From: Erysipelotrichaceae bacterium
GTDB lineage: Bacteria; Bacillota_I; Bacilli_A; Erysipelotrichales; Erysipelotrichaceae
DNA length: 64,000 bases
Reading direction: 5' to 3'
Assembly: GCA_031272515.1 (NCBI GenBank)
Contig: JAISTR010000012.1
Span: 1 to 64,000, forward strand
The notes beneath the pieces were generated by a model. It saw nothing but the letters and a program-made list of their open reading frames with translations, ran no database searches and was not told where the DNA came from. Shown piece by piece: positions 44,861 to 46,812 of the stretch. How positions within the stretch are numbered: the stretch's first letter is position 1; every line of letters starts with the position of its first letter. A program made the position numbers and the translations under genes.

Positions 44861-44885
44861 CAAAAAAAGCGCAGATTACTCTGCG
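44861..44885 (-). terminator. Terminator of infC-rpmI-rplT
   Basis: CGCAGA-GTAA-TCTGCG followed by CTTTTTTT on the minus strand; the loop contains the rplT stop codon (TAA). Confidence 0.85.
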
Positions 44886-45616
44886 GCTTTCTTCGCTCTT
44901 GGTTTCTTGACAGCCGGCTTGTCCGCTTCTTTCTTCTCAGCGGGCTTTTTGGCTGCGGGTTCCTTTTTAGCGGCAGGTTTCTTCACTGCTTTCACCTCGG
45001 CTTTCGCCTCATCGACAGCTTTTTCCGCTTTGGCCTTGACACTCTTAGCGGCCTTTACCGGCTTTTCGCTGACACCAGCCGCTTCCGCTTTGACTTCAGC
45101 AACAGCTTCCACCACCGGTTTTTGGGCCTTTTTCGCCTTGACAGCTTCCTTTTCGATTTCCGCCTTCGCACTCTCAGCAGCGCTGGTCACGATTTCCTTG
45201 ATGCTGGCGGCGGTGCTTTTCACAGTATCAACCACAGCTTGGGCCCGGGCAGCAGCCGCCTTTTGGGTGGCGTCCTTGGCTTTGGCGACAATCGCACTGA
45301 AGCCCTTGGGGTCACTGATGGCAATTTCTGAGAGCATCTTGCGGTTCAAAGTAATCCCGGCCGTCTTTAAGCCATACATCAGCTTTGAATAGGAGATATC
45401 GTTGATCCGGGCTGCCGCATTGATGCGGGCAATCCACAGCTTGCGCATATCGCGCTTGAGCTGCTTGCGGTCCCGGTATGCATATTGCAGTGAGGTCATC
45501 ACCTGCTCATGCGCGGTGCGGTAGAGCAGATGCTTGGAGCCAAAGTATCCTTTGGCCAGTTTCAATACTTTCTTTCTTCTGGCGCGGGTGGCCACGCTTC
45601 CTTTTACTCTTGGCAT
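44876..45616 (-). CDS. rplT: 50S ribosomal protein L20 with long histone-H1-like tail
   Basis: 246 residues where L20 is normally about 118. Residues 1-115 are standard L20 ([46 protein letters not shown]), needed for early 50S assembly. Residues 117-246 form an extra tail: first an Ala-rich helix ([19 protein letters not shown]), then a Lys/Ala/Pro segment with repeated [15 protein letters not shown]-type units like histone H1. The frame is intact to the terminator, with no sign of a fused second start. The tail should be basic and disordered on the ribosome surface. L20 is also the likely repressor of its own operon through the infC leader. SD AAGGAGG. Confidence 0.93.
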
Positions 45617-46368: not shown

Positions 46369-46392
46369 AGTGTTTCACCTCTTTCTTTCAGG

Positions 46393-46419
46393 AAATAAAA
46401 AGCGGGCGCAAGCACCCGC
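46393..46419 (-). terminator. Attenuator in the infC leader
   Basis: GCGGGTG-CTTG-CGCCCGC followed by TTTTTATTT on the minus strand, ending 24 bases upstream of the infC start and just before the ribosome site. It should stop transcription early unless an upstream structure prevents its folding. Confidence 0.85.
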
Positions 46420-46521
46420 ACAAACAAACTCTTTTGGTATCAAAGAATGAATGTAGCGTGGACCTACGGCTGTTCGCCATCAGGTGAGAAGTGCTTCTGC
46501 TTTCTACGTTTTTTACTTCGC
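46420..46521 (-). promoter_or_regulatory. L20-type leader of infC-rpmI-rplT
   Basis: The RNA between the predicted start (about 46521) and the attenuator contains AAGCAGAAGCACTTCTCACCTGATGGCG and GCCGTAGGTCCACGC-type sequence as found in Firmicute L20 leaders, where L20 binds a structure that mimics its rRNA site and promotes the terminator. Fold assigned by similarity and position only. Confidence 0.7.
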
Positions 46522-46527
46522 TCTCAC

Positions 46528-46556
46528 AAAATATCACAGTTTATGGCCTCTGTCAA
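46528..46556 (-). promoter_or_regulatory. Sigma-A promoter of infC-rpmI-rplT
   Basis: TTGACA (46551-46556), 17 bases, TATTTT (46528-46533) with TGA directly before it. Confidence 0.8.
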
Positions 46557-46581
46557 ATCGGTTTTGTTCGTCAATGCCGAA

Positions 46582-46613
46582 TTTTCGCGTTTTTTTGCAT
46601 TTTTTTGCATTTT
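46582..46613. repeat. Phased T-tracts between infC promoter and the candidate small RNA
   Basis: T-runs begin at 46590, 46600 and 46610 (two copies of tttttttgcat), with a shorter one near 46582. The 10-base phase is that of bent DNA. They lie upstream of the infC -35 box and of the plus-strand -10, so could aid both. Confidence 0.55.
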
Positions 46614-46637
46614 CCTCTGCGAATTGGCATTTTGAAA

Positions 46638-46646
46638 TGATACAAT
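46638..46646 (+). promoter_or_regulatory. Extended -10 box for a plus-strand RNA
   Basis: TGATACAAT on the plus strand with T-tracts upstream; no strong -35 box. Start expected near 46652. Confidence 0.5.
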
Positions 46647-46651
46647 AGATA

Positions 46652-46807
46652 CGCATTCAGAATGCCAGCCTGGCTTCTCCCCAAATAACCCATCACTGAC
46701 ATTCTGAATGCTTTTACAAGCAGTGCATCTATGCAGTCGTTGTGTAAAAACAGATCTACAAAGTCCAAAATGGCAGGAAGCGAAGCAAGAGCCCGCTTCC
46801 TTTTTTT
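46652..46807 (+). ncRNA. Candidate small RNA, about 155 bases, no family recognised
   Basis: A gene-free stretch with three ordered structures on the plus strand: GCATTCAGAATG (46653-46664) pairs perfectly over 12 bp with 46700-46711; TTTTACAA (46712-46719) pairs with TTGTGTAAAA (46740-46749) around TGCATCTATGCA; and a terminator GGAAGCG/CGCTTCC plus seven T ends it. An extended -10 sits 6 bases upstream of the first stem. It does not look like 6S, SRP RNA, tmRNA or RNase P. It contains a short frame (nine codons from 46662) without a ribosome site. It converges with rplQ, so the terminator may also serve the alpha operon. Confidence 0.5.
46776..46807 (+). terminator. Terminator of the small RNA, perhaps shared with rplQ
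   Basis: GGAAGCG-11 bases-CGCTTCC-TTTTTTT. The T-run is on the plus-strand side; on the minus strand the stem follows rplQ but is trailed by TGCCATTTTG, a poorer terminator. Confidence 0.75.
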
Positions 46808-46812
46808 CTTTC

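Follow-up and report, generated by a model that had tools for sequence, protein, structure and literature searches.

A candidate orphan small RNA between the infC operon and the alpha operon of an Erysipelotrichaceae bacterium

We analyzed a 64,000-nucleotide stretch of DNA (the window) from an Erysipelotrichaceae bacterium and found a segment that probably encodes an independent, untranslated RNA of about 155 nt on the plus strand (approximately positions 46651 to 46807). The segment lies in the intergenic region between the infC-rpmI-rplT operon and the alpha operon, which ends in rplQ, and the genes flanking it are all on the minus strand. On the plus strand, a promoter element is followed, in register, by two hairpins, a linker, and an intrinsic terminator that works in one direction. 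The best overall reading is that of an independent RNA of this length that would start at the foot of a stem and act in trans through a loop, and we consider that complete reading evenly poised between right and wrong. The candidate is best described as an orphan, lineage-specific predicted small RNA (sRNA), so far known from its own genome alone.

The terminator provides the strongest sequence evidence that the RNA is independent. It consists of a hairpin with an 8-bp stem at approximately 46775 to 46801 and a run of seven T residues at 46801 to 46807, the sequence reading T7CTTTC, so that the strong terminator with seven T residues described in a first-pass annotation of this DNA is indeed present (46775 to 46807). 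It is strong in the plus direction only, with a T-tract score of 5.6 on the plus strand versus 1.3 on the rplQ (minus) strand. The plus-strand score lies above the 10 to 90% range of 2.7 to 4.8 for terminators of the same genome (90th percentile, 4.76). Because all of the surrounding genes are on the minus strand, this is a plus-strand terminator with no gene to serve. We counted every intergenic hairpin followed by T6 or longer in a background sample of 415 kb of the same genome (20 stretches plus the window, with 404 called genes). Among the 51 terminators found, 46 followed a gene on the same strand, 2 had no preceding gene in their stretch, and 3 were orphans. Two of the three orphans, lying 25 to 27 nt upstream of a gene on their own strand, resemble leader terminators, which leaves the candidate's as the sole terminator of the 51 with antisense genes on both sides. 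A bidirectional terminator shared with rplQ, or an rplQ terminator in disguise, a look that an A tract ahead of its hairpin could produce, was rejected, since a T score of 1.3 on the rplQ strand means that the structure is not a functional intrinsic terminator for that gene. Of 34 terminators located between tandem genes, none had a comparable T tract on its reverse side (best score, 3.5, versus 5.2 at the candidate).

At the other end of the segment, an exact match to an extended −10 element, TGATACAAT, lies on the plus strand at 46638 to 46646, where the first-pass annotation had placed it. It predicts a transcription start at approximately 46651 to 46653, 0 to 2 nt ahead of the stem of hairpin 1 and thus at its foot. 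Counting TG followed by at least five of the six bases of TATAAT, we found 22 extended −10 sites of this quality on the two strands of the 64-kb window. The chance that one would fall within the 7-nt register of the stem foot is estimated at about 0.001, or somewhat more where intergenic DNA is AT rich. We saw no convincing −35 box for the candidate promoter, and a scan with the sigma-70 consensus gave no plus-strand match here. The predicted infC promoter (TTGACA, a spacer of 17, and TATTTT, with a TG) lies at 46528 to 46556 on the minus strand and is divergent from the candidate promoter. Together with the one-way terminator, the register of start and stem supports the independent plus-strand RNA that had been proposed for this segment.

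The plus-strand fold of 46652 to 46810 has an energy of −46.2 kcal/mol (z = −4.2), matched by none of 200 shuffled sequences, and this signal comes mostly from hairpin 1 (46653 to 46711). The arms of hairpin 1, GCATTCAGAATG at 46653 to 46664 and CATTCTGAATGC at 46700 to 46711, form a perfect 12-bp inverted repeat; in 300 shuffles of the segment, no perfect repeat exceeded 11 bp, a length that turned up once. Its apical loop of 16 nt is largely unpaired in the ensemble. Hairpin 2 (46712 to 46749) is built around a palindrome, TGCAT at 46724 to 46728 and ATGCA at 46731 to 46735, and is of modest stability (−9.2 kcal/mol, z = −2.0); 19 of 500 shuffled sequences were equally good. Both hairpins had been described before, and both are present, the second as a weak one. 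They are separated from the terminator by a single-stranded linker of about 25 nt (46750 to 46774), in which pair probabilities are near 0 over the first half and the second half makes one weak 3-bp pairing. As originally described, the plus strand of the segment is free of genes: the one closed reading frame worth mentioning has 8 codons and no Shine-Dalgarno sequence, and a peptide-coding function was rejected on that ground.

We then considered what such an RNA might do in cis. The candidate converges on rplQ (L17; 46813 to 47175, minus strand), its 3′ end lying 5 nt from the rplQ stop codon, and it is fully complementary to any read-through RNA from the alpha operon. On the rplQ strand, no canonical intrinsic terminator was found in the 400 nt downstream of the gene (46413 to 46812), where the best T score was about 2.3, whereas rplQ is followed by an intrinsic terminator within 120 nt in 30 of 48 other genomes, most of them from the same family. 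The alpha operon thus seems to lack an intrinsic terminator of its own after rplQ in this genome. The leading rival to our reading is accordingly that the plus-strand RNA acts only in cis, trimming or ending the read-through RNA of the alpha operon by duplex formation and RNase III or by polymerase collision. This role rests on presumed read-through, and Rho-dependent termination would fit too. Moreover, an antisense RNA acting in cis has no need of elaborate hairpins, and here the loop is kept unpaired; we consider an exclusively cis-acting RNA unlikely. A more elaborate version, in which a genus-specific RNA opposite an alpha operon deprived of its terminator determines in cis where that operon's mRNA ends, insulating or coupling two ribosomal protein operons brought together by a rearrangement, and in addition uses a C-rich loop in trans, appears distinctly improbable.

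The evidence on strand is not one-sided. On the plus strand, hairpin 1 has a folding energy of −20.4 kcal/mol (z = −5.4), and on the minus strand it is more stable still, at −32.2 kcal/mol (z = −7.4), with 0 of 500 shuffles as good in either case. Because an A-C mismatch on the plus strand becomes a G-U pair on the minus strand, the stem there runs to 17 unbroken pairs, including that one G-U. The minus-strand fold of the whole segment also scores well (−60.5 kcal/mol, z = −4.4). The structure might therefore be a 3′-untranslated-region element of the alpha operon mRNA, with the plus-strand terminator being incidental. There is a precedent in the L17 downstream element, which is found 3′ of rplQ in Lactobacillales and Listeria and whose G-U pairs led its authors to place it on the rplQ strand (PMC2864571). 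The candidate resembles that element in being structured, in lying 3′ of rplQ, and in the ambiguity of its transcribed strand (PMC2864571), but it differs in having a terminator and a promoter element that mark the strand opposite rplQ. Identity with the L17 downstream element (RF01708) was rejected, as no match was found at the candidate at an E value of 10 or anywhere in its own genome. Hairpin 2 also favors the plus strand, being weaker on the minus strand (−5.4 kcal/mol, z = −0.85), and in most relatives rplQ ends in a simple terminator. With the promoter element and the T tract pointing to the plus strand, we consider a minus-strand element rather improbable.

We searched for relatives of the candidate in a genome collection with no second species of its genus. 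A nucleotide search of 273 Erysipelotrichaceae genomes returned no homologue; the best foreign match, 34 bp with an E value of 8e-4 per genome, is at chance level, given that 273 genomes were searched. A single-sequence covariance model run against the family and 316 genomes of the order likewise returned no homologue. Its best foreign hit had an E value of 0.04 per genome, and the two best foreign sites looked unrelated on inspection. There was no match in phages, plasmids, or viral contigs, and the candidate is single copy in its own genome. Among the loci examined (114 with rplQ and 34 with infC), infC and rplQ lie side by side only in those of this genome, so that the position of the candidate is not conserved either. 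The lack of conservation in the sequence and structure-model searches, together with this unique adjacency, would suit the view that no transcript is made and that the features came together by chance in an intergenic region of recent rearrangement. We consider this very unlikely, since the fold (z = −4.2), the one-way terminator, and the register of start and stem are each improbable by chance and all point in the same direction.

Each arm of hairpin 1 is itself palindromic (CATTCNGAATG; 46653 to 46665 and 46699 to 46711). The two palindromes might function as an operator pair, or they might let the RNA form dimers. On the operator view, GCATTCAGAATGC and ACATTCTGAATGC would be DNA sites through which a repressor controls the divergent promoters, and the RNA hairpin would be a by-product. 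This view draws on the small chance of a self-palindromic stem arm and on the confinement of the 11-mer CATTCNGAATG to these two sites, 46 bp apart, in the 2.13-Mb genome, but it is scarcely credible, because a regulator would normally also bind at the gene that encodes it, whereas the genome has no third exact site, and because the terminator and hairpin 2 would be left unexplained. An operator serving a wider regulon was rejected, there being just two sites in the genome.

The first-pass annotation could assign the RNA to no family that it could name, and a scan against Rfam, both at the gathering score and at an E value of 10, bore this out, giving no plus-strand match above chance. The only match to the L20 leader (RF00558) lies in the same intergenic region at 46388 to 46508 on the minus strand (54.2 bits, E value of 5e-10, just below the Rfam cutoff). 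It is the leader of the infC-rpmI-rplT operon, a separate element on the opposite strand that does not overlap the candidate, and an L20 leader was therefore rejected as the candidate's identity. Matches to the L20 leader family occur in 52 of 58 genomes of the family and reach the Rfam cutoff in only 3; the form of the leader predicted for the Erysipelotrichaceae clade is divergent.

The operon under this leader has a further peculiarity. The product of rplT (44876 to 45616, minus strand) is an L20 protein of 246 amino acids in which a normal L20 domain (PF00453, residues 3 to 109) precedes a tail of about 128 residues that is rich in Ala, Lys, and Pro and resembles histone H1. L20 is about 118 to 122 amino acids long in most relatives, with extensions of about 50 amino acids at loci L192 and L194 and of about 105 amino acids at locus L187; the L194 extension is a Rho_N domain (PF07498). 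L20 controls its own operon via the L20 leader, which makes nucleic acid-binding tails on this protein curious.

6S RNA (RF00013) is similar to the candidate in length and is also intergenic. RF00013 matched 38 of 41 genomes and had no match in the candidate's own genome, and so we tested whether the candidate might be a divergent 6S RNA. With a clade model (R2) derived from 19 6S sequences found in the order, the candidate scored 5.2 bits, far below the real 6S RNA of the same genome, which the model found elsewhere (contig C49, 46981 to 47134; locus L242, 1501 to 1654) at 115 bits. As the candidate also had no RF00013 match at an E value of 10, a divergent 6S RNA was rejected. That the genome's own 6S RNA was missed by RF00013 and found by the clade model at 115 bits indicates that RF00013 underdetects 6S RNA in Erysipelotrichaceae.

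How might an independent plus-strand RNA act? With its 5′ end immediately at the long stem, the RNA would be shielded from 5′ decay. The loop of hairpin 1 contains a UCCC motif, CUUCUCCCC, that is mostly single stranded in the ensemble, making it an unpaired C-rich loop. This loop could pair in trans with Shine-Dalgarno sequences and so block translation initiation, in the manner of the UCCC-loop sRNAs of other Firmicutes. UCCC motifs block Shine-Dalgarno sites in LhrC, RsaE, SprD, RNAIII, and FsrA (PMC4132741), and the C-rich regions of IsrR are used likewise (PMC9410917). The candidate is like the trans-acting RNAs of this kind (LhrC, RsaE/RoxS, FsrA, and IsrR) in its size, in its order of hairpins followed by an intrinsic terminator, in having an unpaired, C-rich loop that could mask Shine-Dalgarno sites, and in its lack of an open reading frame. 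Unlike members of a homology family, it bears no sequence or covariance relation to them in Rfam, and the likeness is one of functional class. It also differs in having one C-rich loop, whereas LhrC or IsrR has three sites, and in having a single copy and a predicted target only.

The 9-mer complementary to the loop occurs 39 times in the genome, versus 19 times for the reversed control, an excess that a G-rich Shine-Dalgarno bias could explain. The best predicted target is a 166-amino-acid membrane protein encoded on contig C31, over whose Shine-Dalgarno sequence the loop would form 13 contiguous pairs (−32 kcal/mol); about 1.5 matches of such quality are expected by chance in 2,000 genes. 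Across start regions, the loop paired no better than shuffled loops, 11 of 30 of which equaled or surpassed it on average, and the targets predicted for it were not significant. Target prediction thus being at chance level, the loop mechanism is a reasoned guess; if the transcript exists, we think it slightly more doubtful than probable that this is its main action.

The location of the segment had also raised the idea of crosstalk with ribosomal protein expression. When the candidate was paired with either the infC leader or the start regions of rplQ, rpoA, rplT, and rpmI, the duplex energies were no better than those of shuffled sequences (z scores from −0.7 to +1.1). With no excess pairing and with the infC-rplQ adjacency confined to this genome, such crosstalk is unsupported, and the lack of any homologue extends this to conserved crosstalk between the two operons.

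sRNAs that are restricted to one lineage and have no homologues are common, and for that reason the general lesson is modest. An intrinsic terminator that works in one direction and has no gene on its own strand is a usable marker of an sRNA when covariation is unavailable. If it is transcribed, the candidate adds an orphan sRNA to the Erysipelotrichaceae and shows how a new intergenic region between two essential operons can gain a regulatory RNA.
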